Below the pieces are notes generated by a model. The model worked only from the letters and a program-made list of their open reading frames with translations, had not been told where the DNA came from and searched no databases. Below, piece after piece: positions 6,308-36,766 of a stretch of DNA of 38,957 nt. The DNA is from a virus. A program made the translations under genes and the position numbers. Position 1 is the first letter of the stretch. The number at the start of each line of letters is the position of its first letter. The stretch lies in the IMG/VR virus record IMGVR_UViG_3300021962_000259, positions 1 through 38,957 of that record. One strand, written 5' to 3'.

Positions 6308-9300
6308 TCAGTTCTGGAAGTTTTGTCCACCTACGACACCGTAGAGTCCTGATGTTGTTGGATTGTCTCCATCAAAGATCTTAAACGAATAAATGTCAGA
6401 TCTGCTTGCAATTGTTGTAACAATTGGAACAACATTACCTGGCCAATAAACTGGAATTGATGTTCCACCAACATTCTTAAATGTATCTATACCAACAGAA
6501 CGACTTCCTGTAGAATCTTGATCAATTCTAATTGAGAATGATGTGGATCCTGAAGGAGCATTGGTCAACGTAAACTGAGTAATATTAGAAGTTGCAGTAC
6601 AAATAAATGTTTGTGCCTGTGAAAGGTCAACGGTTACTACATTGGCAACAATATCAAGATACTTAACTCTTTCGGAATAAGTCTTAAATTTAGTATGACC
6701 ATTAATATCAAGTTTTGCCGTAGGAAGTGTGGATCCAATACCAACATTCGCACCATAAGACATTATGACTGTCGCACCAGATCCAACTTTAATATTTGTT
6801 GTGGTAACAATACCAGCAGTAATTCGTCCAGAAGCACTTTGCAAGTTATATGCAACTGCGGTAACAAATCCAACAACGTTAAGATCTCTGACTGAAATAA
6901 TTCCAACAAAGTTTGCTTGACCATGAACAACCATTGTGGTAGTTCCTACTCCAGCAACAGAATCACCAACTGTCAGATTTACAGAGGTTACTGATGTTCC
7001 AAGACCAACAGAACCTAAATCTGTGTTGTATATAATTCCATCCGCATTTGTCCATCCAAGAGCAGATGTATTGATATTGGTGATTAAAGATCCATCTCCA
7101 GAGAATGCAGCAGCAGTTACTGTTGCCCCAACAGAAAGTGCTCCAGAAATTGTCGTGATTCCAGAAATATAAGCACTTCCAGAAATGTTGGTGTTTCCAT
7201 TAACGTTCAGTTTATATCCATTTGCAGTTGTGCCAATACCAACACCGTCATTATCAACTGTCAATTGAGTTGTTCCTGCACCAACCTTAAATGTTGCTTC
7301 ACCCGGAGTGGTTGTACCAACACCTACCTTATTAAAGATAGCAATATTTTCATCTTTACTGAGACTTACAAATCCAAAACGACGCCAGTCATTTTCCGTG
7401 CTATAAATCCAACCAACATATCCACCTTCACTTGGGTTTGCAAAGTAAACAACATCTCCAGGGTTACCTGCAAGAGCAGGTGTCGCAATTCCTACAGTAT
7501 ATTTTCTAGAAACAGTCGTATCACCTTGTAAGAAAAGATTATTTGCCTCAAGACCTTTGGTAGAATTAACAGTTAACTTATTGTTAACAATAACTGGACC
7601 ATTAAATTCCGAAGCAGCTTTAGAATCGGATCCTCCTTCTATACGAATTGATCTTGAGAAGATGCCCTCAACAGGAGTGATAACATTTAAACTTGGAAGA
7701 ATACTAATATCTTCTCCAGTGACCGTTTGGAAAGGAGTATCAAATATTTCTTCACGACCTGTAACGGTACTCAATCTCTTATTACCAGAGTATGAAATAC
7801 CCTTGTCATTCATACCAGTGTAGAAGTTGATTCCACCACTACGCTTAGTTGATTGAGCAAGTAGTTCTTCTCCTGCTGTAATAGAGCGATCGTGTCTATC
7901 TGGAAGTGCAGTAGAATAATTACCAGGACCAAATCCAACATACTCAAATGTATGACCAGATGCTCTGTTGATTGAGTGTCTTCTTAATTCTACAGGGTCA
8001 ACTCTAACTCTTCTTAAAACTGTGTTGATTAAGTGCGATGTTGGTCTTGTTCCAAGAACACCACGAATAACGCTAATTGGATTTCCAGTTACTGATTCTT
8101 TGACTCTTACCAACTCATCACCAATCATTAAATAATCCCCAATATTAATATCAAGAGAAGTTACATTTGCAATATTAACTTCATCAGTGGTTGCATTAAT
8201 GATTGCAACAGACAATGTTGTTGTAATTCCAGCATAAGTTGGAATCATTCTACCATTGAGATTTTCATTACCAATAGAAATAATACCATCATTTGATGAC
8301 AGTCCATCTCTTAAGGCATAGAGAGTTCCAGAAACAGCAGGTGATGTTGTACCAACACCAATTCTAATTGAGAATTCTGTTCCGTTAGTGCCAATAATTT
8401 CAGTTACTACATGAGATCCATTATATACAGTTGCTCCATCTCCTGTAGCACCTGTAATAGTGATCTTTCCATCAACACTTAATCCATGCCTATTGCTAGA
8501 TATAATTGTTGCGATTCCAGAATTTTTATCATAAGTAAGGCTAGAAATTCCAATTGATTGTCCAGTTAATTGGAAATAAGATCCAGTAGCAAAAGTAGCA
8601 CCAATTCCAGATGAAGTATATCCACCAACAGAAGATGCAGAAGATACTGTGAATGAAGTTGTATTTCCTACAGGAACATCTGTAATTCTATAGAGTTGAT
8701 TATACTCACCAAATCCTTCAGATCCAACTCCACTAATTCTAATAACATCACCAACATTATTATAAATCCCACTAACAGTTAATATTGCAGAAGAGAATCC
8801 AGTATATGTTGCAACTCCTGCTACATGTAAAGTATCTCCAACCGCATAAGAACTACCACCATCCATGATCTTAATGGCATTAATAGATCCACTTCCATCA
8901 ACAGTAATCTTTGCTGTTGCATAATTTCCAGTTGTAGATCCAGTACTAATCAGAGATACATTATAATAGTCTCCAGCAGTTCCAGATCCATATCCAGCAC
9001 CAGAATTAGAGATTGTCAGAGAGGTAATTCTGTTTAATCCATGATCATAATTTGTATATACGGTATGTGCTGTTCCACTTTGAGATCTAATATTAGTAAT
9101 ACCAACACCAACGTCAGTATCTCTAAGATACTTATTCGCTGTTTCTTTTGTGATACTATTTTTTGGATCATTAATAACAACTTCACCAACTAAAGATGAA
9201 ACTGCAAAACATTGAGATTCTTTAGGATCAGATACTGGAGTGTCTCTATCGGTTTGTGGGAATAATTTTGATACTGGCTGAGAATATTTTTCATTATTAA

Positions 9301-12241
9301 ATGGACTTACTGTTGGTTTTAGATTAGAACCAAGAACAGTCAGATAGTAAACTCCATCTTGTCTTCCAGAAACATATTGCTGTTCCTCAGTTACTCTATA
9401 AATGTAGAAATTATTTTCGTATTCTTTCTTTTTAAAATAAGGAAGTGATGGGGTTCTTTGAGAAACATCATTTGTGAATGAACCAGGATTTGTGTTTAAT
9501 CCGACATTAAAGGATCTGGCACTATTAATTCCCACAACATAATATTCTGAGTTAAATCCAGAATTTCCTGCTCCAGTAGTGTTATTTGTACTTGTAATAT
9601 TAGATAACTCAACTTTAGTACCAACAACTAAGTCATGTGGTTTTTCTGTGACAATAGTTGCCTGATTTCCACTCCAATTGGCACTAGCAATAATTCTGGG
9701 GTTTCTTATTTGATTAATATTTGAGATAGATCCACTATCACTATAGATGGCAGAAATTTCACTATCAGTAGATCCAATAGAAGTATTTGATTCTTGAATA
9801 ATAAATCCTTCTACAGGAGGTCTTGCAGTTGCCCCAGATGAAGCAGGAATGACATATCTCATTCTATAGAGAGTGTCCTCTGCATTTCTATTATCAGTTT
9901 TTCTTCTAATAAACGTTCTTGGGGTTGATGCGCCAAATCCAGTAGAACCTAATCCAACAACAATAGGATAGATGGTATTATCACTAGAAGCAGTAGAAAC
10001 GTTAACATACCATTGAGAATTGGTAACATCATACTGAATAGGATGCCCAATATCTCCAGAATTCTTATCAGAAACTTTACTTACAACTTTCAGAAGTCCA
10101 CCCTTTTCATTAATGGTTAATTCATTTCCATTAAGAGCATCTTGGAAGGTTTTTGCGAGTTTGATATTTCTAGTGGTAGATAATCCACTAGAAATCGCAT
10201 AATAGATCGAATTAGATTGTAAACCATCAGGAAGTTGTCCACTCTCACTAATTACACGTACAGACTCCCCATCAAGGAAATCATGTATACTTACTAAAGT
10301 AATTTCATTTGATACACCACCTTCACTATAAACACCAATACTATTGATACCAGTAACACTACGTTCTACATTAAATGATTTTTCAGAACTCTTTTGAGAG
10401 TTTGGCATTACAATTCTTGCACTATATTCTGTAACAGAACCTGCGGAAGAAACAAGAACTCTTAATTTATCATTTTCCCTTGCACCAATTCTATATCCAT
10501 CAATGACATTTTCTGGTGGAACATCTGGATTAGTTTCACCATAGAGATAAAGATGACCAGTCGAACCAACACCAACCGACGAATATCCAGTGGGAAGTGT
10601 TTTTAATACATCGATTGCATTAAACTCAAGGGCAGATTCTGTTAATGGAATTTCCTTAGGTGGAATGATATGAGTAATGTATCCCTGATCATCTTGTGGG
10701 AATGCTTGTTCTCTAAATCCATCTGCAATCAGTGCTCTTGCACCAAAGTTGGAGTTAGAGTTGGTGATAGACATATCACCACCATTTTCAGCAACAAAAT
10801 GTTCGGCATATCCAATTGCAAAGATAGAAACACACTGAATGAAGGAATTGTTTGTTGCCTTAATATGGAAGTTTCTATATTGTGGTTTAAATACTGATCT
10901 TGAGTTTGTGCTTAGAGTTTCATTTCCAGAAACCGTGTTGTCTTCGTATGTTCCAGAAGTTGAGTTATATTTAACAAATGCTCTATCATCCTTTTGGAGT
11001 CCAATACCTGTAAATTGAGCAACAACCATGGATTTAAATCCACTTGCTTTATTGCCATCAGCAAGAATTCCGCACATACCAAAAACAGATCTCAATGAAA
11101 TGTTAAAGATGTATGGAGATGCAGAGGTAACCGTATCTGATTGAAGAACGAGAGTTGCACCTGCCACAGTTGGAAGTGGATTTGTTGGCGCATCTTGTAC
11201 TTGATATTTTATTTCAGTATCACTGACTTTTTCAGAAACAACATACTGTCCATTATATCCAGATGCAGTAATTCCATTAACACGGAAAGGAGTATCTACA
11301 TCTAATCCAGATAATGGACTATTTGTTGTTAATGTAATTGTTGTATTTGTAAATGTACCGTCTCCTGCTTTGACGCTACTAATACCAACAGAAGCACCAG
11401 TCGATCCTACAATTCTATATTCATCAATTTTTGTTTGGATATCGAGACCAGAAGATGGGTAATCAGGTTCGATAGCACGTCCAGAAGATTGTCCATATAC
11501 TAAACTGATTTTCTCATAGTACATATCCAAATCAGTTCTAGTTGCAGAGAACTGTTGGAATTCATCATTAATATCTACAGTATTTTTTCCGTCAGCATAC
11601 TCAAAACATGAAAGTTTATTATGAGAAAAGTTTGGTACAAAAGTATTTGATGTATAGTCCTTGTAGCAAAGGCTATTAGGATCAGCATCAAATAATGAAA
11701 ACTGCCAGAAATAACATCCACCAGTAATTCTAAAGATTGCAGATCTTTCAATATTATCGTTTTCAGGATTAGGAATATACTTTGGGCGAACTTTGGTCTT
11801 TCTAAGGTCTAAACCAACAATAGAAGTTCCCCTAGGAACAAAAACTCCACCATGAATACTATTAAGCTTGTATAATTCGTTATCTTTTGAGTCTAAGTCT
11901 AAATTAGAAGTTAAATCATATGGAGGAAGATCGTTTACAATCGCTCCAGCTCTTGTTCTATAATTATTGAGTCCATCTGGAATATATCCAGGTCTATTAT
12001 CAACGATGTGGTCTCCAGGATACAAAAGAATTGTAGTCTTACCAAATCTATCGTTACTTAATCCTCTTTGATATGAAAATCTAGCGGACTCCATTAAAGC
12101 ACGCTGGATTGTTTTAAAAGGACGAGTAAGAGAGTTACCTTGATTCTCAATACTGTCTGTAGAATCTAAGTCATTCGGATCAACATAAAGAATAGTACCA
12201 CGCGAAGACTTCAGAAAATTATCTAATCTGGAAAGACCCAT
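6308..12241 (-). CDS. Giant virion fibre/spike protein, 1977 aa
   Basis: A 1977-residue structural protein. The N-terminus (YVDPNDLDST, then PFKTIQRAL at 41-49, then ILLYPGDH) has the hallmark opening of right-handed parallel beta-helix proteins, as in pectate-lyase-like tail spikes. The long middle is beta-rich with many GSG, GVGSTG and similar turns. From about residue 1550 onward the sequence takes on fibre-shaft style, including VGIGTTANGYKLNVNGN, which echoes VGIGSTTPQYLLDVKG in the S74 fibre. A similar large protein is common in marine T4-like phages and annotated as a virion structural protein. It is first in its operon, with its own ATAAATA promoter and a terminator just upstream. No glycosidase motif could be assigned, so binding versus depolymerase activity stays open. 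Confidence 0.82.
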   Translation of the reverse strand: MGLSRLDNFLKSSRGTILYVDPNDLDSTDSIENQGNSLTRPFKTIQRALMESARFSYQRGLSNDRFGKTTILLYPGDHIVDNRPGYIPDGLNNYRTRAGAIVNDLPPYDLTSNLDLDSKDNELYKLNSIHGGVFVPRGTSIVGLDLRKTKVRPKYIPNPENDNIERSAIFRITGGCYFWQFSLFDADPNSLCYKDYTSNTFVPNFSHNKLSCFEYADGKNTVDINDEFQQFSATRTDLDMYYEKISLVYGQSSGRAIEPDYPSSGLDIQTKIDEYRIVGSTGASVGISSVKAGDGTFTNTTITLTTNSPLSGLDVDTPFRVNGITASGYNGQYVVSEKVSDTEIKYQVQDAPTNPLPTVAGATLVLQSDTVTSASPYIFNISLRSVFGMCGILADGNKASGFKSMVVAQFTGIGLQKDDRAFVKYNSTSGTYEDNTVSGNETLSTNSRSVFKPQYRNFHIKATNNSFIQCVSIFAIGYAEHFVAENGGDMSITNSNSNFGARALIADGFREQAFPQDDQGYITHIIPPKEIPLTESALEFNAIDVLKTLPTGYSSVGVGSTGHLYLYGETNPDVPPENVIDGYRIGARENDKLRVLVSSAGSVTEYSARIVMPNSQKSSEKSFNVERSVTGINSIGVYSEGGVSNEITLVSIHDFLDGESVRVISESGQLPDGLQSNSIYYAISSGLSTTRNIKLAKTFQDALNGNELTINEKGGLLKVVSKVSDKNSGDIGHPIQYDVTNSQWYVNVSTASSDNTIYPIVVGLGSTGFGASTPRTFIRRKTDNRNAEDTLYRMRYVIPASSGATARPPVEGFIIQESNTSIGSTDSEISAIYSDSGSISNINQIRNPRIIASANWSGNQATIVTEKPHDLVVGTKVELSNITSTNNTTGAGNSGFNSEYYVVGINSARSFNVGLNTNPGSFTNDVSQRTPSLPYFKKKEYENNFYIYRVTEEQQYVSGRQDGVYYLTVLGSNLKPTVSPFNNEKYSQPVSKLFPQTDRDTPVSDPKESQCFAVSSLVGEVVINDPKNSITKETANKYLRDTDVGVGITNIRSQSGTAHTVYTNYDHGLNRITSLTISNSGAGYGSGTAGDYYNVSLISTGSTTGNYATAKITVDGSGSINAIKIMDGGSSYAVGDTLHVAGVATYTGFSSAILTVSGIYNNVGDVIRISGVGSEGFGEYNQLYRITDVPVGNTTSFTVSSASSVGGYTSSGIGATFATGSYFQLTGQSIGISSLTYDKNSGIATIISSNRHGLSVDGKITITGATGDGATVYNGSHVVTEIIGTNGTEFSIRIGVGTTSPAVSGTLYALRDGLSSNDGIISIGNENLNGRMIPTYAGITTTLSVAIINATTDEVNIANVTSLDINIGDYLMIGDELVRVKESVTGNPISVIRGVLGTRPTSHLINTVLRRVRVDPVELRRHSINRASGHTFEYVGFGPGNYSTALPDRHDRSITAGEELLAQSTKRSGGINFYTGMNDKGISYSGNKRLSTVTGREEIFDTPFQTVTGEDISILPSLNVITPVEGIFSRSIRIEGGSDSKAASEFNGPVIVNNKLTVNSTKGLEANNLFLQGDTTVSRKYTVGIATPALAGNPGDVVYFANPSEGGYVGWIYSTENDWRRFGFVSLSKDENIAIFNKVGVGTTTPGEATFKVGAGTTQLTVDNDGVGIGTTANGYKLNVNGNTNISGSAYISGITTISGALSVGATVTAAAFSGDGSLITNINTSALGWTNADGIIYNTDLGSVGLGTSVTSVNLTVGDSVAGVGTTTMVVHGQANFVGIISVRDLNVVGFVTAVAYNLQSASGRITAGIVTTTNIKVGSGATVIMSYGANVGIGSTLPTAKLDINGHTKFKTYSERVKYLDIVANVVTVDLSQAQTFICTATSNITQFTLTNAPSGSTSFSIRIDQDSTGSRSVGIDTFKNVGGTSIPVYWPGNVVPIVTTIASRSDIYSFKIFDGDNPTTSGLYGVVGGQNFQN

Positions 12242-12271: not shown

Positions 12272-12278
12272 TATTTAT
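12272..12278 (-). promoter_or_regulatory. Late promoter element ATAAATA
   Basis: The minus strand reads GGATAAATAATCC, 30 nt before the ATG of the 1977-residue gene and immediately downstream of the T-tract of the terminator at 12281-12308. It should restart late transcription of the fibre operon after the early island has been terminated. Confidence 0.7.
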
Positions 12279-12280
12279 CC

Positions 12281-12308
12281 ATAAAAAAACCTCCCCGAAA
12301 GGAGGTTT
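12281..12308 (-). terminator. Rho-independent terminator of the early island
   Basis: On the minus strand an 8-bp perfect stem AAACCTCC / GGAGGTTT with a 6-nt loop (12287-12308) runs into a T tract (GGAGGTTTTTTTAT). It lies 36 nt after the stop of the Mom-like gene. The stem ends with T residues only on the minus strand, so it acts in that direction. Confidence 0.88.
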
Positions 12309-12344
12309 AAAGAAGCACAACGACTTCATTCACACGGAAGGAAG

Positions 12345-12959
12345 TTATATTATACCATACTTTTCTTCTTTCCACAATACCTTTAATTTTTTATCAAAAA
12401 TCATTAAATATCTATGCTTTCTGGTTCTTTCTCTCCATTCACCTTCAGAACCTTTTATTTTTCCACGAGAGTGTTTAGTTCCGTCTGAATAATAGAAATC
12501 TTTTTTTCGATCCGTAAGACCGTAGTACTTAAAATTGCAAGCTCTATAAATTGTACCAGAATGGTGACCTGAATCAGCATAAGAAAGGATTGCTTTGACT
12601 TCAGTATCTTTCCGAAATTGTCTAATCGCTTTTGATACAAACCAAGAAGTGATGTTATATTCTCGTGACTGCGTAACAGGCTCGATGCAAAGTCTTGAAA
12701 GTTCGAATAATCCTTGTTGTTCATAACGATCTAATCCAAATGCTCCTACGGCAATTTCTGGAACTGGGAGACTAGTAAAAATGCAAGTACCAAGACACCC
12801 GCCAATTCTAAGGGGACATTCCCAGTCAGAATACTTGAAAAGTCCATAGTTATACCCTGATTTGAAATCTTTAGATTCGTCTTTTAGATAATGATGAGTG
12901 CAAAGGAGATCTTTTATCTCATCTTTGCTAACTTTATCTATGTAAAAATCAGATTTCAT
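12345..12959 (-). CDS. Mom-like adenine-modification protein (GNAT fold)
   Basis: A 204-residue protein whose sequence pattern matches the phage Mom family (GNAT-fold enzymes that add a carbamoylmethyl-type group to adenine N6 in DNA and block restriction). Visible landmarks are THHYLK at 21-26, ELSRL at 86-90, YN followed by TSWF at 101-107, LSYADSGHHSGTIYRA at 125-140 and NFKYYG at 142-147. The length is close to other Mom-type proteins. It is the last gene of the early island and is followed by a strong terminator. A general N-acetyltransferase with another substrate is the main alternative. No methyltransferase motif is present. Family assignment is by recalled pattern, not a search. Confidence 0.65.
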   Translation of the reverse strand: MKSDFYIDKVSKDEIKDLLCTHHYLKDESKDFKSGYNYGLFKYSDWECPLRIGGCLGTCIFTSLPVPEIAVGAFGLDRYEQQGLFELSRLCIEPVTQSREYNITSWFVSKAIRQFRKDTEVKAILSYADSGHHSGTIYRACNFKYYGLTDRKKDFYYSDGTKHSRGKIKGSEGEWRERTRKHRYLMIFDKKLKVLWKEEKYGII

Positions 12960-12969
12960 TTAGGTATTT

Positions 12970-13143
12970 TTACTCACTTTGTTTGCATTCTAACATATAT
13001 TCTACAGTGTTTGCTACGTCATTCATAGCATCACGAAGAAATGGTCTTTGACCAGATTCTTGACGAACAATAGGTCTTGAACCATCAGTTAAAGTCCAAC
13101 GCCACTGCTTCATATCATCACAATACCAAAGATTAATTTTCAT
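12970..13143 (-). CDS. Small conserved-looking protein, 57 aa
   Basis: A 57-residue protein, MKINLWYCDDMKQWRWTLTD at the start. I chose the ATG at 13141-13143 because the longer open frame runs back through the adjacent gene and the tRNA, and because this ATG overlaps the stop of the 52-residue gene by 11 nt, as expected for translationally linked genes. It is rich in aromatic residues near the N-terminus and ends in an acidic helix (RDAMNDVANTVEYMLE). The fold and role are not recognised. Its stop is 10 nt from the ATG of the Mom-like gene, so the two are in one transcript. Confidence 0.65.
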   Translation of the reverse strand: MKINLWYCDDMKQWRWTLTDGSRPIVRQESGQRPFLRDAMNDVANTVEYMLECKQSE

Positions 13144-13291
13144 TTTTGTAATGCTCCAGTTCAACCCAGTTGAGGAGGGTTTGGAATGCTGTGATGGAAG
13201 CATCTGTGCAATTATCATCCTTAAGTTTTTGAACATAATATTCAAGTGCTTCGATGACCATTTGGCGGTCTTGTTGAGAAATAAGTGACAT
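13133..13291 (-). CDS. Small helical protein, 52 aa
   Basis: ATG at 13289-13291 opens a 52-codon frame ending TAA at 13133-13135. The protein starts MSLISQQDRQMVIEALEYYV and continues as amphipathic helices (KLKDDNCTDASITAF, then LLNWVELEHYKNEN). It fills the gap between tRNA-Thr and the 57-residue gene exactly and overlaps the latter by 11 nt, which favours a real gene. A GGAG-like sequence precedes the ATG. Function unknown; short two-helix proteins of this type in early phage operons are often host-takeover factors, but nothing in the sequence proves that here. Confidence 0.6.
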   Translation of the reverse strand: MSLISQQDRQMVIEALEYYVQKLKDDNCTDASITAFQTLLNWVELEHYKNEN

Positions 13292-13310
13292 TTGGAGTTA
13301 TAGAACTCAG

Positions 13311-13382
13311 AGCCCCCGATCTGATTCGAACAGACGACCAACGGTTTACAAAACCGTTGCTCTACCACTGAGCTACAAGGGC
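13311..13382 (-). tRNA. tRNA-Thr (anticodon TGT)
   Basis: A 72-nt cloverleaf on the minus strand. The 7-bp acceptor stem is GCCCTTG / CGGGGGC with two G-T pairs. The D stem is GCTC / GAGC. The anticodon stem is ACGGT / ACCGT with loop TTTGTAA, and the anticodon TGT is at 13348-13350. The T arm is GTCTG-TTCGAAT-CAGAT. The discriminator is T and CCA is not encoded. It reads ACA, a frequent codon in AT-rich phage genes. It sits between two small genes of the early island. Confidence 0.93.
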
Positions 13383-13385
13383 AAA

Positions 13386-13655
13386 TTAATCAACAGGTAA
13401 CATTTCTGGATTTTCCAGTTCTACTTCAAACATTAAAGGATGGCACAATTCATCAATCAAGTAAAGTGATGACTTATATAAATCCTCTGGTTCGTAGCGT
13501 CTTTCATTATCTGCTATTTCAATAATATCCAGATCATATAAACCATCATCTGGGACATCATCAAAAGTAAAAGGAACTTGATTTATGAAATACATGAGGA
13601 CTATCTGAGTTCCCTTATTGTACCAAACATATCTGGTATCTATTCTGTATTTCAT
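13386..13655 (-). CDS. Acidic conserved-looking protein, 89 aa
   Basis: An 89-residue acidic protein (start MKYRIDTRYVWYNKGTQIVL) with a beta-rich N-terminal half and a DEL- and EVELENPE-rich C-terminal tail. It lies between the two tRNA genes, and its stop is 3 nt from the 5' end of tRNA-Thr. A CTAAATA element 23 nt upstream suggests it can also be expressed late, independent of the early promoter. No family recognised. Confidence 0.75.
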   Translation of the reverse strand: MKYRIDTRYVWYNKGTQIVLMYFINQVPFTFDDVPDDGLYDLDIIEIADNERRYEPEDLYKSSLYLIDELCHPLMFEVELENPEMLPVD

Positions 13656-13677
13656 GGGTTTACCCCATACTTAAGTG

Positions 13678-13684
13678 TATTTAG
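13678..13684 (-). promoter_or_regulatory. Possible late promoter element CTAAATA
   Basis: The minus strand reads CCCTAAATACAC between the 3' end of tRNA-Leu and the ATG of the 89-residue gene, 23 nt upstream of that ATG. Spacing matches the other late elements in the window, but a single 7-mer in AT-rich DNA is weak evidence. Confidence 0.4.
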
Positions 13685-13689
13685 GGTAA

Positions 13690-13774
13690 TAGGACGAGGG
13701 GGACTTGAACCCCCACGGGCGTAATGCCCAACAGATTTTAAGTCTGGTGTGTCTACCACTTCCACCACCGTCCC
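13690..13774 (-). tRNA. tRNA-Leu (anticodon TAA)
   Basis: An 85-nt class II tRNA. The acceptor is GGGACGG / TCGTCCT, closed by a G-T pair at positions 1-72 and another at 7-66, with discriminator A (a leucine identity base). The D arm has GTGGTAGAC. The anticodon loop is CTTAAAA with anticodon TAA at 13738-13740. The long variable arm is TGGGCATTACGCCC. The T arm is GGGGG-TTCAAGT-CCCCC. The bottom pair of the anticodon stem is a C-T mismatch. No CCA is encoded. It reads TTA codons. Confidence 0.92.
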
Positions 13775-13776
13775 AG

Positions 13777-13795
13777 AAAAAACCTATTCAGGTTT
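13777..13795 (-). terminator. Possible weak terminator or processing hairpin before tRNA-Leu
   Basis: On the minus strand a 6-bp stem AAACCT / AGGTTT with loop GAAT runs into a T tract and then the tRNA. The stop codon of the 51-residue gene (TAG, 13784-13786) lies inside the hairpin. With only three G-C pairs it may attenuate rather than terminate, or mark the 5' boundary for tRNA processing. Confidence 0.4.
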
Positions 13796-13939
13796 ATAAG
13801 TAGGAGGATTGAGACGACAATACTCATTAAAAGTAATTTTCATCTCTTTCCAAGTCAAACCACAATTTTCGGCTGCTTTAGGAACATTCCACTTAGCAGC
13901 AAAGAGCATTTCCATTGCTTCTCGTGTTTCTGGTCTCAT
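13784..13939 (-). CDS. Tiny HTH-like protein, 51 aa
   Basis: ATG at 13937-13939 opens a 51-codon frame (start MRPETREAMEMLFAAKWNVP) ending TAG inside a small hairpin. The pattern helix, NVPKAAENCGLTWKEMKITF, then a short tail, is like a helix-turn-helix in which KAAENCGLTWKEM would be the turn and recognition helix. This is pattern reading only. It lies downstream of the sigma70-type promoter between the 60-residue gene and tRNA-Leu, so it is probably expressed early. It could be a small DNA-binding regulator. Length and context fit a real gene, though no database support is available here. Confidence 0.6.
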   Translation of the reverse strand: MRPETREAMEMLFAAKWNVPKAAENCGLTWKEMKITFNEYCRLNPPTYKPE

Positions 13940-13962
13940 TTAAAAAAATCTAATAGGGTTAA

Positions 13963-13993
13963 ATTTTTGCCGGGATTTTTTCCCCCCAAAAAT
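13963..13993 (-). other. Imperfect stem-loop in a 76-nt noncoding gap
   Basis: ATTTTTG and CAAAAAT form a 7-bp inverted repeat around a nested GGGA / TCCC pair, lying in the 5' leader of the 51-residue gene. The G-rich run (six G) followed by A6 is unusual for this window. It may be an mRNA structure or may carry no function. Confidence 0.35.
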
Positions 13994-14015
13994 GGAATTA
14001 AAAGTTGATTTTCCC

Positions 14016-14198
14016 TCAGAGAGGACTTGCATAAGCAAGTGTCTCTTCATCAACAGTAGCACGAACAAACTCAAGGACACTCATAAATTGTTCCACGGTT
14101 TCACAGGTCACGGTTTTCTCATCACCCTCACTAGAATACATATGTACACTGCGCTTCACAGGATCCACGACACAGCGGGTGAGATACTCGTCTTGCAT
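14016..14198 (-). CDS. Small early protein, 60 aa
   Basis: A 60-residue protein, start MQDEYLTRCVVDPVKRSVHM. It is the first gene after the sigma70-type promoter at 14224-14252, with a leader of roughly 20 nt, so it should be expressed immediately on infection. It has a beta-hairpin-like N-terminal half with one Cys at residue 9 and a second Cys at 32 (VTCETVEQFMSVLEFV), then a helix. No family recognised. Position as first gene of an early operon is typical of host-takeover proteins, but that is inference. Confidence 0.72.
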   Translation of the reverse strand: MQDEYLTRCVVDPVKRSVHMYSSEGDEKTVTCETVEQFMSVLEFVRATVDEETLAYASPL

Positions 14199-14223
14199 TG
14201 GGTTGTCTTTTGATTACCTAGGT

Positions 14224-14252
14224 ATCATAGCACTGTCAGGGGGTGGCGTCAA
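14224..14252 (-). promoter_or_regulatory. Sigma70-type early promoter
   Basis: On the minus strand TTGACG (14247-14252) and TATGAT (14224-14229) are separated by exactly 17 nt. That is one mismatch from each of the bacterial -35 and -10 consensus boxes at optimal spacing. The -35 box overlaps the TGA stop of the upstream 220-residue late gene. Transcription should start near 14217, leading into the 60-residue gene. A GGGGT/ACCCC hairpin potential also spans the -35 region. Confidence 0.85.
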
Positions 14253-14911
14253 CCCCTCACATCATAATCATATCCAGAAATCGAATACTGAGAATCATCA
14301 CCTGGATATTCTGCTGGAGTTTCTCCCTCATACTCCACAACTAGAGGCTCACCATCAATTCTTGCTGCTTGTATGACGTAATAACAATCAATGGTGGCGG
14401 CATTTCCAGAACGAATTTTAATTCTTGATCCCCATTCGATTGCCTCAACAATTAGATCTTGAGATGATCCAATTTGTGTAAGCGCAACTGTAATTGATTC
14501 TGGATCAATCAGTCCTCTCCAGTAACTGGGGAGTTCGATTACGTTTGAGTTAGTAATCCTCCCTCTATGATAAACACCTGCCTCTGGTCCTTCTAAACAA
14601 ATATGTCTCAGACGATGATTTTCTTTATTTGGATGTTTAATATCAAATCCTTTCCAAGATTGAACATTGATAGTTCCTTGGAAAGTTCCATTATGTGTTC
14701 CATCAAATCTTCCCGTTGCCGTTCCATTTACCTGAAGGTTATCAATCTGAGCATTTCCATGATACCTGGGAGGACATGCATCTTCAGGATAAGTTCCCTG
14801 ATCAATATCACCCTTCCAAATATAATCATATCTAGAAGATTTTAATCCCCATCCACCTGCTTTTTCAGAACAGTCTTTACCATCTGTACCTGGTACAAAT
14901 TCATCTGCCAT
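14249..14911 (-). CDS. Virion structural protein, 220 aa (paralogue of its neighbour)
   Basis: A 220-residue protein with a variable N-terminal part (1-88, with NLQVNGTATGRFDGTHNGTF repeats typical of fibres) and a C-terminal domain (89-220) starting FDIKHPNKENHRLRHICLEG. That domain is closely similar to residues 130-259 of the protein encoded immediately upstream, and both end in SGYxYDVR. The domain recurs in marine phage virion proteins as I recall; its biochemical role is unknown. A strong AAGGAG ribosome-binding site lies 7 nt before the ATG and overlaps the upstream stop codon. It is the last gene of the baseplate operon before the early island. Confidence 0.75.
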   Translation of the reverse strand: MADEFVPGTDGKDCSEKAGGWGLKSSRYDYIWKGDIDQGTYPEDACPPRYHGNAQIDNLQVNGTATGRFDGTHNGTFQGTINVQSWKGFDIKHPNKENHRLRHICLEGPEAGVYHRGRITNSNVIELPSYWRGLIDPESITVALTQIGSSQDLIVEAIEWGSRIKIRSGNAATIDCYYVIQAARIDGEPLVVEYEGETPAEYPGDDSQYSISGYDYDVRG

Positions 14912-16422: not shown

Positions 16423-19400
16423 TTAAATAAGATTTTCTGGAGTACCTGGAATATTGAGTCTTGGATCATTACTACGGATGTCTGTACCCTGTCTCTGAAT
16501 TGCTGATGGAGGTGTAGTTACCTCAGCATCAATACTTTCTTGTAGTGTATCATAAACTTGTACAAGTTGTCCAGGGGTTTCATAAAGACCAGCATAACGA
16601 ACGTTATCCTTATAGAAGACGGCACCATAGTAAGGTCTTCCTCTATAGTATCCAGTCTGTTTGAGACCAACCAAATCAGTAACCTGAATCAGTTTGTCTG
16701 GATCATCAAGGATAGCGATAGGATCTCTAATAACTTCAAATATTGGTCTAAATTCAGCATTAACTCCAGTGAGAGACGGCATAGTAATTTCGGGATACGT
16801 TGTATATCCAATCGCTGGAGTATCAACATTCACTCTTACAATTCTACCAAAACTATCACATTCATATGAAAGTTCTATACCATTGCTTGGTGTGACTTTA
16901 ATTTGATCTACTCCACAATTGTAATTAATTCCTGGATTAATAACTTCTATGGCAGCTAACCTCAAAGTAGCTGGATATCCTGGTCCAGGTGTGATTGGGA
17001 ATCCATTTCCAGGATCATCAACAATTACTTTACAAATTCTACCTTTTCCAATAACTTCTTTTGGACAAGGTGGTGGAATCAAAATTGCAGATATTCCCAT
17101 AGGATTTGTTGACCAAGGTTCTGATATGCCAGAATCAACGGAAACTTGTGTTGTGATGTCGATTTCCACTCCTGTTGGGTTTTGTTGGAATCCTGTGTTA
17201 GAGAGTCTAATATTAAACAATTCAATTTCTACAGTTCTCTTTCCCGCTGAAGCATTAAATTCTAAGTAACGAAGTTCACCAGCACCCAATAGTCCTTCAT
17301 ATATTTTAAGTTCAGCAACTTTTTCACCGTCAACTCTAACAATTGCTGCATCATCAACATTCCCTCTAATTTTATATCTACCACTCACAGGAAAATCAAC
17401 ATTATTCCATCTAAATAACCAACTTCTTCCCTGAATTTCCTCACTAGGAAATGAATTTACATTCTGCAAAAGGGGAGATATCATGCCTGGAATATAGTTT
17501 GCAATTTCTGTTGGTCCATCATAAACAGTGCCACCTCTGGTTGTTCCTGATTTGAGACCAGTAGGAGGTCCCTCAGGAATAATGAATTTGCATTTATTAC
17601 CATCGAGTTTATAGAATTTTCCAATGCTACACGAAGCAATAATATCAGTAAAATCATTGTCTGTTGCATCTTCCATCTCAACAACACTTTCACCTCTATT
17701 CCTCAATACAATATTCCTAGTAGCATTTTTGGGTATTCTACCCCACTTTGGATCGGCAAGAAATTGTTTCATTTTTTCGCCAATGAGACCTGGAAAATCG
17801 TTTTCCAAATAGTATCTAATATCAGAATCACTAAATCCTTGTGCTTTTGCATTGGGATAATCAACTCCATACCCGAAGTATTGATCACCACCCCTACCAG
17901 ATTCATCAGCAGTTCCTTGAGAGTAATCAAAACCTTTCATACTCTTAACAACATTCTTTGCATTACTAGTCATGACCACATCATACTCAACACCAACCTG
18001 CAAATTACGAGTCACTGTTTCATTGAGTTGAGCACCTTTGTATTGTTTGCCAAAAGAAAATTGTCCTACCATCTCAATTGTATTTGCATAATCTGCTGCA
18101 GAAGTAATTTTAAAAGTGACATCTTTAAATTCTGCTTGTTGTGTTGGTTTTGTAATCCAATCTTTGGTACTAAAAACTACTTTTTCTACATTTTCATAGG
18201 TTTTTGTTATACCATTTTCAACTTCGACTGTGATTTTATGAAGTCCTTCTTGTAGGAATATTTTTTTAACCTTGGGATTGTTTTCTCTCCAGTTATAAAT
18301 TAGTCCACCTTCGATGTCCTCAATTCCACTTCTTCTTTGGAATCCATCCCCACCTCTTGTATTTACAAGAGAAGTTGGAATATAATTTGCCTGCATTACA
18401 GGTATTCCATCGATCAATATTCTTCCAGCATTATCTACCGTAGATTTAAAACCATAATATCCATTATATGGAATCTCAACATCCCATTCATTTCTATACA
18501 CAATACCACCACTATCTGACCCAGGAATAGAAAGTGGTGCAACTGGAGAAATAGCATATCGATTCATAAAATCGCTCCATCTATCTCCGCCAGAAGGATT
18601 TCTAGTAAATGTAACTGGATACCATTTCTCTTTAGAATTTGGGAATCTTGTTGTCCAGATAGGATTATTTGGACATCTTCCTTCAGAAATAGGTTTTGGT
18701 TCTTGAGGAATAGGTGGGAAAGGTGCATCGATTGTCAATGCAACACCCATTGGATTTTCATTCCAAGACTTACTAGAAACAATTTCTACTTCATTAAAAG
18801 TAGAACTAATATTAATAGCAAGAGCCATTGGATTTCTTCCTCCAAGAGGATTCCCACTGATTTGAGTTAACTCTGCTCTGATTCTATATTTTCCAGCTTT
18901 AAAGAATTTTGTATAGGTACTCTTTCCTGTGCTTTTACCTTCACCTCTTCTCCCATTACCTCCACCCACATATGTGAATCCTTGCTTTCTAATAATAACC
19001 TCATCTCCACCCTGTTCGATGTCACGCAATCCATTTCCAATTTCCTTTGCCCCGCCACCATCTCTATTACCAATATAGATTACAACATCGTCGTCCACAC
19101 CCACTTCGATATTATAATTTCCATCAGTAGGAAACTCAATATATTCCCATCGAATAACATGCGTTCCAGCAAAATCAGAATTTTGTGCTTGCTTACTTCT
19201 TGGATCAAAAGGAAGAATTCCATATCGATTTATAAACGCAGCATCTCTACCAGCACCAGGATCAATTCTCCAAAGTGCTCTATCTGCCTTATCAATGTAG
19301 TCAGCAGTGTTAAAAATAACCTTTGTTACTTCAGAACTACTACTTGAGGAATATTTTGGTTTTGGTCTCTCTGTTGCAACAAATTTGCATTTGTTTCCAG

Positions 19401-21381
19401 ATATTTTAATAAATTTTCCACAACTTGCAGATATAGTAAGATCTGACCAGTCTTCATCCGTTGCATCTTCTGTCTCGATGATACTTTCACCTCTATTTCT
19501 TAATCTAACATTTCTGTTATTGTTCGTAGGAATTTTACCCCACTTTGGATCCGAAAGAACTTTTTGCATCTTTGGACCAATAAGTCCAGGAAAATCGTTT
19601 TCCAAATAGTATCTAATATCGGAGTCACTAAATCCCTCGGACTTTGCTTTTGGGTAGTCAACTTCATATCCAAAATAAACTCCAGCATTATCTTGATTAC
19701 CTTGGGAGTAATCAAAACCAATCATACTCTTAACGATATTCTTTGCGTTACTAATGATTGTTACATCATATTCTTTTCCAAACTCTATAGTTTTTGTTAT
19801 TGTTTCGTTTATATTTGCTGCCTTATACTGTTTACCAATATCAATACCAAGTTCTGGTATCAATATTCTATTTGCATATTCAGCTTCGGTTTTTATATTA
19901 AACGTAATTTCATTCGAAGTGCATCCTTCGGTACTATTTTGTACTACAATCTTTTCTTTAATCGGAGCATTTATGAGATCGACTCTAATTCTATGAACTC
20001 CAGACTCAATATTTCTTTTAATAGGTTGTGGAGTTCCATTAAATTTTTGAAGATCTGCAACTTTTTGATTATCAAGATAAAGAGTCGCTACGTTGTCACA
20101 TAAACCCTTAAAAATATAATCTCCTTTATAAGGAAAATCTTCTTCCCACTCGATTGTAAAAGGAATGCTTGCATAATCACTTCCTGGAACGTTCGATGGT
20201 GGAACAGGAGAGATTGCATTCTGATTCATAAAGTCACTCCACGGACTTTTACTATCAGGAAGCCTTCCCCAATTAGGATCGGCAAGGATCTCTTTCATCT
20301 TTGGACCGATAAGTCCCTTAAAATCATTTTCTAGATAATATCTAACTTCAGAATCAGTGTAACCTTGATTCTTTGCGTTCTGATAATCTACTCCATACCC
20401 AAAATATTGATCTCCACCACGACCAATAGAATCAGAAGATCCTGGAGAGTAATCAAATCCAACCATGCTTCGGAGACTTTGATTACCATAATAAGATACA
20501 CTATGTACAGTTCTTGTTTTTTTTGTCGAAGAAGTAACAGCAATTGGTGTATTTTTTCTTGCTGTCCACCAATTATAAATTGTTGCTGAATTAACATCAA
20601 CACTAGTTCCACCTTTTAGCAACTGAAGATAATCTTGATATCTTTGTATTTCTAGTCTGACAGGATCGTTATCAAAGTTTGCATATAAAGTTGGATCCCA
20701 TTCTCCAATATCTTTACCTTCCGCATTATATCTTCTACCAGCACTGACTTTTGGTGGAGCAAAAGATACAAGATCATACTCCTCAAAGTCATCTTCTTGG
20801 TCAAACACTTCAAAAGTGCGAGTAAAAGTACAATCTGGATATTTAGGATCCCCAACAAGACTAGATCTTACACCTGCACCAGCAGCAATTCCATATGGAT
20901 CCAATACAGTTGTAACGGGTGCATATTTGTATCCCCATCCACCATCAATTAAATCAACAGCAAGTAAAGATCCATCATTACCAAAAACTGGATTGGCAAC
21001 GGCACCAACTCCACCACCACCACTAAAAATAACTTTTGTTGGTCTCTCTTGAAAAACTTCTGGTTTAATATTTGTTCCCGATCCACCATCTCCAAAAGAT
21101 CCAACAGGAGTATCTCCATAGATATCGAGTCCAGTTACCCCATCACAATTTTCAGAAGAACTTGATGGCAATAAGTCTTTTGGTGTTAATGCATTAACCT
21201 CATTAATATTTAAATATTTTATTATATCTCTATTTTTAAAAACAAAAGTTGTTCCAGGATTTAATTTTGCATATACATTTGCTTCGTGCAAAGTAACATC
21301 TGATACGAATCCCCTTTCAGGATCAACATATCCAACTCTAATATCTTTTTTTGATGCTGATCCAAAGATATCAAACGACAT
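16423..21381 (-). CDS. Giant baseplate-region structural protein with PA14-like repeats, 1652 aa
   Basis: A 1652-residue protein. Four segments match the PA14-like beta-sandwich pattern (Trp, then P-x-G-x-Y, then a VDD- or CDN-type strand, then a DG or DN turn) at about 405-480, 743-850, 960-1060 and 1320-1400. Between them a conserved unit recurs at about 309, 556 and 1151 (FDYS, GDQYFGYGVDY, RYYLENDF, then DPxWG). The phrase WSDFMN with AISPV appears at 381 and 935. PA14 domains often bind carbohydrate, so host-glycan binding is plausible. Large proteins of this kind are annotated as virion structural proteins in marine T4-like phages. A late promoter lies about 40 nt upstream. Repeats at DNA level include an exact 32-nt pair. 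Confidence 0.8.
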   Translation of the reverse strand: MSFDIFGSASKKDIRVGYVDPERGFVSDVTLHEANVYAKLNPGTTFVFKNRDIIKYLNINEVNALTPKDLLPSSSSENCDGVTGLDIYGDTPVGSFGDGGSGTNIKPEVFQERPTKVIFSGGGGVGAVANPVFGNDGSLLAVDLIDGGWGYKYAPVTTVLDPYGIAAGAGVRSSLVGDPKYPDCTFTRTFEVFDQEDDFEEYDLVSFAPPKVSAGRRYNAEGKDIGEWDPTLYANFDNDPVRLEIQRYQDYLQLLKGGTSVDVNSATIYNWWTARKNTPIAVTSSTKKTRTVHSVSYYGNQSLRSMVGFDYSPGSSDSIGRGGDQYFGYGVDYQNAKNQGYTDSEVRYYLENDFKGLIGPKMKEILADPNWGRLPDSKSPWSDFMNQNAISPVPPSNVPGSDYASIPFTIEWEEDFPYKGDYIFKGLCDNVATLYLDNQKVADLQKFNGTPQPIKRNIESGVHRIRVDLINAPIKEKIVVQNSTEGCTSNEITFNIKTEAEYANRILIPELGIDIGKQYKAANINETITKTIEFGKEYDVTIISNAKNIVKSMIGFDYSQGNQDNAGVYFGYEVDYPKAKSEGFSDSDIRYYLENDFPGLIGPKMQKVLSDPKWGKIPTNNNRNVRLRNRGESIIETEDATDEDWSDLTISASCGKFIKISGNKCKFVATERPKPKYSSSSSSEVTKVIFNTADYIDKADRALWRIDPGAGRDAAFINRYGILPFDPRSKQAQNSDFAGTHVIRWEYIEFPTDGNYNIEVGVDDDVVIYIGNRDGGGAKEIGNGLRDIEQGGDEVIIRKQGFTYVGGGNGRRGEGKSTGKSTYTKFFKAGKYRIRAELTQISGNPLGGRNPMALAINISSTFNEVEIVSSKSWNENPMGVALTIDAPFPPIPQEPKPISEGRCPNNPIWTTRFPNSKEKWYPVTFTRNPSGGDRWSDFMNRYAISPVAPLSIPGSDSGGIVYRNEWDVEIPYNGYYGFKSTVDNAGRILIDGIPVMQANYIPTSLVNTRGGDGFQRRSGIEDIEGGLIYNWRENNPKVKKIFLQEGLHKITVEVENGITKTYENVEKVVFSTKDWITKPTQQAEFKDVTFKITSAADYANTIEMVGQFSFGKQYKGAQLNETVTRNLQVGVEYDVVMTSNAKNVVKSMKGFDYSQGTADESGRGGDQYFGYGVDYPNAKAQGFSDSDIRYYLENDFPGLIGEKMKQFLADPKWGRIPKNATRNIVLRNRGESVVEMEDATDNDFTDIIASCSIGKFYKLDGNKCKFIIPEGPPTGLKSGTTRGGTVYDGPTEIANYIPGMISPLLQNVNSFPSEEIQGRSWLFRWNNVDFPVSGRYKIRGNVDDAAIVRVDGEKVAELKIYEGLLGAGELRYLEFNASAGKRTVEIELFNIRLSNTGFQQNPTGVEIDITTQVSVDSGISEPWSTNPMGISAILIPPPCPKEVIGKGRICKVIVDDPGNGFPITPGPGYPATLRLAAIEVINPGINYNCGVDQIKVTPSNGIELSYECDSFGRIVRVNVDTPAIGYTTYPEITMPSLTGVNAEFRPIFEVIRDPIAILDDPDKLIQVTDLVGLKQTGYYRGRPYYGAVFYKDNVRYAGLYETPGQLVQVYDTLQESIDAEVTTPPSAIQRQGTDIRSNDPRLNIPGTPENLI
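17792..17823 (-). repeat. Direct repeat, 32 nt, copy 1
   Basis: Identical to 19589-19620. Both encode the DIRYYLENDFP segment of the repeat unit in the 1652-residue protein. Such DNA identity within repeated modules allows in-frame module loss or gain. Confidence 0.88.
19589..19620 (-). repeat. Direct repeat, 32 nt, copy 2
   Basis: Second exact copy, 1797 nt (599 codons) from the first and in the same frame. Confidence 0.88.
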
Positions 21382-21420: not shown

Positions 21421-21427
21421 TATTTAT
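21421..21427 (-). promoter_or_regulatory. Late promoter element ATAAATA
   Basis: The minus strand reads TAAGATAAATATG. It begins one base after the TAA stop of the gp5-like hub gene and lies 39 nt before the ATG of the 1652-residue gene. Confidence 0.65.
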
Positions 21428-35861: not shown

Positions 35862-36454
35862 CTTTCTCCTAAAACAATCTCTTTTAAAATTTTTTTATAA
35901 CGAAATACATCTATATGTAGGAAAGAAGAATATTTTTTCATTCTCATACTGACGGTTTCCCACACTGGGTCTTTTAGTTTTTTATCAAAGTCATTCCCGA
36001 ACAGGAATATTTTGTCATAGATGACCATAGTTTCAGGGCTAATATTCCCGCTCAGGAAACTTTTTAAAACTGGCGGGTGACCCTTGGAACAATCAAAAAT
36101 AGTATCAACTTTTTGATTGCGAAATAAATTTTCAGTCTCTTCTTTAAAAACATACGAAAGAGACTGATTTCTTTTCTTCCATGCAGTGTATCTACTTTCA
36201 CCTTCTCGTATCATCTCTCCTATCCAAAGTTTACCTGGATCAGTACAGGTGATAAAGTTAGATACAAAAAACTCAATTACTTCTTGATCGGTCTTATTTC
36301 TTGCTAGTTTTTCAAACCAGAATCTATCTTTTCTTTTGTAGAAAGATTGTACAGTCGCACGACTCTTTCCACAATATTTGTGGTAGTCATACTTATCTTT
36401 CGTAAAGTGATTCTTTAGAGAAAGATATTGTCTATAAGCGTCGAAGGGCATCAT
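35858..36454 (-). CDS. 59: Helicase loader gp59
   Basis: A 198-residue gp59, near the T4 length (217). Recognisable parts are DAYRQYLSLKNHFTKDKYDY, KYCGKSRATVQSFYKRKDRF, FEKLARN and KLWIGEMIREGESRYTAWKK. gp59 binds fork DNA and gp32 and loads the gp41 helicase. The longest frame starts at a TTG (36455-36457); I chose the first ATG, 36452-36454, with a further ATG at 36449-36451. The gene order gp33, gp59, gp32 matches T4. Confidence 0.9.
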   Translation of the reverse strand: MMPFDAYRQYLSLKNHFTKDKYDYHKYCGKSRATVQSFYKRKDRFWFEKLARNKTDQEVIEFFVSNFITCTDPGKLWIGEMIREGESRYTAWKKRNQSLSYVFKEETENLFRNQKVDTIFDCSKGHPPVLKSFLSGNISPETMVIYDKIFLFGNDFDKKLKDPVWETVSMRMKKYSSFLHIDVFRYKKILKEIVLGER

Positions 36455-36508
36455 CAAAAAATAATATAAAGATTTCTTGTCGAAAAAATTTTCGCCCTAA
36501 AAATAAAT

Positions 36509-36766
36509 TTAAAGAGGAAGTTTTGCTCTAGAACTTCTCTTTAAAAAGTTAAGTTCTATTGCTTCGTATTTAATTTTTTCCTTTAATGGTTTTGATACAA
36601 GTTTTGGAACTGATTCCAAGTCTATGCCATTTTGCTCACAGAAATAAATGATAGCATCAATATAACTCATATCACTATTAACATGAACTAGACTTTCGAT
36701 TTCTTGTGCAAAACGAGATGGACAAAAGAACTTATTTTCTAGTGCTTTTTCTAACTCATTCTCCAT
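36509..36766 (-). CDS. 33: Late transcription coactivator gp33
   Basis: An 85-residue protein aligned by eye with T4 gp33: FAQEIESLVHVNSDMSYIDA, IIYFCEQNGIDLESVPKLVS and PLKEKIKYEAIELNFLKR correspond to the T4 segments around EEFGMSYLEATTAFLEENSI and IIEKIQSEAIDENLL. gp33 bridges RNA polymerase and the sliding clamp gp45 and, with gp55, activates ATAAATA-type late promoters such as those in this window. The first ATG is at 36764-36766; the longer frame would need a TTG at 36793. It overlaps the upstream nuclease gene by 11 nt. Confidence 0.85.
   Translation of the reverse strand: MENELEKALENKFFCPSRFAQEIESLVHVNSDMSYIDAIIYFCEQNGIDLESVPKLVSKPLKEKIKYEAIELNFLKRSSRAKLPL

Follow-up and report, generated by a model that had tools for sequence, protein, structure and literature searches.

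Promoter-early-stem-loop cassettes (PeSLs) of T4-like phages are reportedly the subject of Arbiol 2010 and Comeau 2014. As we use the term, following the description in a citing paper (PMC4503421) and general knowledge, a PeSL is a composite motif of a promoter and a stem-loop. In cyanophages, the relevant passages of Sullivan et al. 2010 (PMC3037559) speak of a hot spot 'near gp5 with tRNAs', and a g15-g18 hyperplastic region of cyanomyoviruses is credited to Millard 2009 in the corresponding part of PMC2984593. Cyanomyophages lack the polymerase-modifying genes of T4 and are thought to use the unmodified host sigma70 polymerase early in infection and NATAAATA promoters late (PMC2984593). The mom gene of phage Mu is treated as a late gene in the account given by PMC4461284.

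Here we describe a gene island in a 39-kb viral record, analysed over its whole length of 38,957 nucleotides (hereafter, the window), that belongs to a T4-like cyanophage whose closest annotated relatives are the Synechococcus phages S-SM2, Bellamy and SynMITS9220M01. The island lies on the minus strand at 12281-14252, with the gene at 14249-14911 on one side and the fibre gene (6308-12241) on the other. Its site matches the published hot spot near gp5 with tRNAs: gp5 was not identified within the 39-kb window, and in SynMITS9220M01, S-CAM9, S-B05, P-TIM68 and S-SKS1 it lies approximately 2-4 kb from the island, which likewise contains tRNAs and variable small genes. However, the hot spot as those passages describe it comes without the conserved promoter, the DUF7294 head and the Mom cargo reported here. 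With PeSLs, as described in the citing paper, the island shares an early promoter in a spacer, stem-loops, conserved intergenic motifs and a setting of gene shuffling; but the island has a single promoter for a multi-gene operon, and our terminator scan found no stem-loop joined to that promoter, the terminator standing instead at the opposite end, ahead of the late promoter, in 13 of 47 relatives. The g15-g18 region, so far as its description goes, resembles the island in being a variable insert within the structural gene module, and differs from it in position and content. Thus the site is already known as a variable spot, whereas to our knowledge the conserved promoter, the fixed first gene and a terminal Mom gene have not previously been described together.

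Content and conserved signals of the island

Since the window alone gives signals that are no better than chance, we gathered relatives of the locus: 80 environmental viral loci retrieved via the upstream flank protein, together with annotated phages. Among these, 67 complete islands were compared, of which 48 were distinct, and the flanks were constant, with the tail fibre gene (6308..12241, minus strand) on one side and a gene for a phrog_28536 protein (14249..14911, minus strand), which is part of a late-type operon, on the other. Island length in the 48 distinct cases ranged 14-fold, from 266 to 3725 bp, and the variable content included Mom (10 islands), CpeT, several 2OG-Fe(II) oxygenases, homing-type nucleases (HNH, NUMOD3 and NUMOD4) and differing tRNAs. 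Close relatives formed pairs with and without a given gene. Loci L075 and L076 are 98-99% identical save for approximately 1 kb with a NUMOD4 gene, and in three loci (L060, L066 and L068) the fibre gene is immediately preceded by a nuclease gene that L063 and L067, related to them at 90% identity, do not have; the majority of islands lack nuclease genes altogether. The first-pass annotation had proposed comparing the fibre-baseplate junction among relatives, and the outcome was as it anticipated, with content that varies between flanks that stay; the range of lengths, the variable genes and the in/out pairs exclude an identical, fixed content in all relatives. Nevertheless, a scaffold consisting of the promoter and DUF7294, usually with tRNA-Leu and small genes, is nearly fixed, and because it is almost constant, only part of the island is cargo. 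Compared as sequences, the relatives thus show a fixed site with conserved signals and variable content.

The head of the unit had been assigned a near-consensus promoter, and this sigma70-type, early-type promoter, TTGACG-17-TATGAT, is present on the minus strand at 14224..14252, with its -35 box overlapping the TGA stop of the upstream gene. In the window, promoter-like sites were not more frequent than chance (34 observed against 35.7 +/- 6.8 expected from shuffled sequence), and many further 10/12 matches occur elsewhere. We therefore take the promoter as real on the strength of its conservation in the relatives and not of the window statistics. Upstream of DUF7294, TTGACA-17-TATAAT was matched at 10/12 or better in 60 of 63 distinct sequences, 28 of them perfectly, a level attained by approximately 2% of shuffled controls, and the regions before the flanking genes and before the other island genes scored at shuffle level. 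The copy in the window (10/12) is weaker than that of most relatives. The relatives further share a conserved GTAATCAA (14210..14217, minus strand) between the -10 box and the ATG, the first base of which falls on the predicted transcription start at 14217; in 47 thinned promoters its GTA had frequencies of 0.96-0.98 and its CA 0.91. In these phages, other early-type promoters also have GTA at equal spacing. When the promoter pattern was extended with the start motif, each of four complete phage genomes had 10-15 matches, compared to 1-4 for the reversed control. The island's promoter is the sole exact match to this extended pattern in Bellamy and one of three in both S-SM2 and SynMITS9220M01; matches also lie upstream of gp32 and gp33.

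The island promoter has a host-type sigma70 sequence, as does the early promoter class of cyanomyophages, and by this criterion it fits the early host-sigma70 class while the fibre promoter fits the late NATAAATA class; from this we infer that the island is expressed early. The two smallest islands, those of P-TIM68 (L011, 266 bp) and AG-345-E08 (L006, 587 bp), retain DUF7294 and have no promoter, and they look as though promoter and cargo travel together. In P-SSM2, it is piuC and not DUF7294 that lies downstream of the promoter-like site.

Four tiny genes, an 89-residue gene, two tRNAs and a Mom-like gene had been read from the sequence, and all were found in place on the minus strand. The first is DUF7294 (PF23966, phrog_662; 60 aa, 14016..14198), which is present, in first place, in 43 of the 48 distinct islands, where the gene order recurs. 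Its predicted fold, from a structure prediction built on alignment rows from viral contigs only, is beta3-alpha-beta; fold matches were weak (FtsH periplasmic domain, E 0.011; eL38, Z 5.9) and were not used to assign a function. There follows a 51-aa phrog_1920/1308 protein (13784..13939), predicted to form a three-helix, helix-turn-helix-like structure, for which the fold matches listed are mostly helix-turn-helix domains; because none reaches significance, a regulatory role is only suggested. This protein is annotated as a Rob transcription factor in S-SCSM1, and the gene at the equivalent position in S-SKS1 is annotated as a Phd-like antitoxin. The remaining features before Mom are tRNA-Leu(UAA) (13689..13775), the 89-aa phrog_4134 protein (13386..13655), tRNA-Thr(UGU) (13310..13382), a 52-aa protein with no family match and with homologues in relatives (13133..13291), and a 57-aa phrog_2818 protein (12970..13143). 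In an Rfam search of the island for further RNAs only the two tRNAs passed, and by analogy with their family these probably support the translation of phage codons.

The last gene of the island (12345..12959, minus strand) encodes a Mom-family DNA modification protein of 204 aa. Its match to PF25680 is full-length, with residues 4-193 aligned to positions 1-190 of the 202-position profile, and scores 74 bits against a curated cut-off of 27.1; a search by sequence against solved structures returned no match. Mom was the terminal gene in all 10 distinct complete islands that carry it. Relatives with 72-84% identity come from environmental contigs. Among the phage records listed, Roseobacter phage CRP-212 has the best match, at 52% identity, which suggests that the gene has passed between marine phages that infect different hosts. 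Three Synechococcus phage records match Mom, and among the matches listed the protein of the cultured cyanophage S-SSM7 is 30% identical. The flanks of the closest Mom-bearing and Mom-free islands are only ~75% identical, so no recent event that added or removed Mom was observed. To judge from its family, the probable role of Mom is to protect phage DNA from host nucleases by modifying it. It shares its Pfam family with the mom product of phage Mu, but whereas mom is a late gene in Mu, here the gene closes an early-type unit.

At the far end, the strong intrinsic terminator that had been claimed is indeed present (12280..12308, minus strand), as a 9-bp stem (12308-12287) followed by a T-tract. 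However, terminator-like sites in the window did not exceed chance (6 against 4.7 +/- 2.1 expected by shuffling), and in the relatives a terminator was found before the fibre gene in only 13 of 47, nearly always directly upstream of the late motif, compared to 1 of 47 for a coding control; this count is a lower bound, since a simple scan may miss imperfect stems. Insulation of the island by a terminator is therefore not general. Adjoining the terminator is the late motif of the fibre gene, ATAAATA (12272..12278, minus strand), and in all 47 loci a NATAAATA-type late motif stands 34-44 nt upstream of the fibre ATG. The first-pass annotation had placed ATAAATA promoters on both sides of the island, which is accurate for the fibre side and holds only loosely for the other, because the upstream motif sits 7 kb away at 21427, ahead of the gene at 16423-21381. 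The window scan found no terminator-like site separating the island promoter from the late operon upstream, and late read-through into the island is for this reason likely.

Proposed expression and exchange of the island

These findings are probably best explained if T4-like cyanophages carry, at one constant position flanked by the tail fibre gene and a structural gene on the baseplate side, a gene island of variable content, with a conserved head of sigma70 promoter and DUF7294, exchangeable cargo, and the fibre's own late promoter at its end. In such an arrangement, unmodified host RNA polymerase would use the conserved promoter to transcribe DUF7294 and the genes behind it, presumably early. 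The near-constant head would be followed by a recurrent set (the helix-turn-helix-like protein, tRNA-Leu, phrog_4134, tRNA-Thr and phrog_2818) and by cargo that can be exchanged, for example Mom, CpeT, 2OG-Fe(II) oxygenases and homing nucleases. Because the fibre gene has its own late promoter directly at the island end, island genes could be gained or lost without harm to its expression, and in some phages, including this one, a terminator may additionally part the island from the fibre unit. The original idea of a cargo island with its own transcription signals is thus borne out in its variable content, fixed flanks and conserved promoter, and needs correction in that the terminator is not general and the head is near-constant.

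How specifically early such an island would be is a separate matter, and we put at about even the chance that its expression lasts the whole infection, driven early by its own promoter and again late by read-through. The genes are almost contiguous, no terminator-like site separates the upstream gene from the promoter, and a late motif is available upstream at 21427; nothing speaks directly against this reading, which is compatible with the promoter and with the variable-island explanation and differs from the latter in timing alone. That the promoter match is instead vestigial, with transcription of the island confined to late infection, is very improbable: the match does not exceed chance in the window taken alone, but both boxes, the exact 17-nt spacing and the start-site motif are strongly conserved.

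The nature of the island itself can also be read differently. A conserved accessory operon located here by happenstance, and not an inserted island, would account for the 43 of 48 islands with DUF7294, the recurring gene order and a base composition near that of the flanks (0.38 compared to 0.36-0.37), but it is hard to reconcile with the 14-fold range in length, the variable genes and the in/out pairs, and we regard it as rather doubtful. Less probable still is that the island serves mainly as a landing site for homing endonucleases or other selfish genes, with useful cargo incidental. HNH, NUMOD3 and NUMOD4 genes do occur in several islands, with clean presence/absence pairs, yet most islands are without a nuclease, and conservation of the scaffold and promoter extends across genera.

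If the variable-island explanation is correct, a lytic phage can house exchangeable early cargo within a late gene cluster, held between a fixed early-type promoter with its leader gene at one end and the late promoter of the next gene at the other. The site would also be a defined place at which to follow cargo turnover among ocean phages, and the Mom-type gene, which is late in Mu, here belongs to an early-type unit of uncultured cyanophages.

A dispersed intergenic element

Behind DUF7294, the window contains one clear copy of a dispersed conserved intergenic element (13935..14014, minus strand), and a weak copy is found at 36452..36523 (minus strand). The element comprises approximately 75 bases with the core GGAAAAAATCCCGGCAAAAATTT, and in relatives it is found at the DUF7294, gp33 and gp32 stop codons. 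The exact 23-base core occurs in 20 viral stretches, mostly outside this island, and a sequence model detected the element in seven out of nine complete phages, each with 1-3 copies; these lie downstream of DUF7294, in the gp33-gp59 interval, behind gp32 facing gp53, or amid small genes. A loose regular expression recovered the element downstream of DUF7294 in 18 of the 43 islands, compared to none of 96 control windows. It had no match in Rfam. We first considered an attenuator, a model left unsupported by any conserved RNA structure, since RNAalifold gave zero consensus pairs and the z-scores of single sequences lay between +1.2 and -2.7. Its role could be in termination, in protein binding or in recombination. 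Tentatively, it may represent an undescribed cyanomyophage regulatory element at the stops of certain early and replication genes (DUF7294, gp33 and gp32) that sets how much transcription or translation is passed to the next gene, possibly when bound by a phage protein. In another early-type cluster (L093, L095, L098, L107, L110 and L112), the element is followed by TTGACT-17-TATAAT and then by several small genes, some of which have a common YRG motif.
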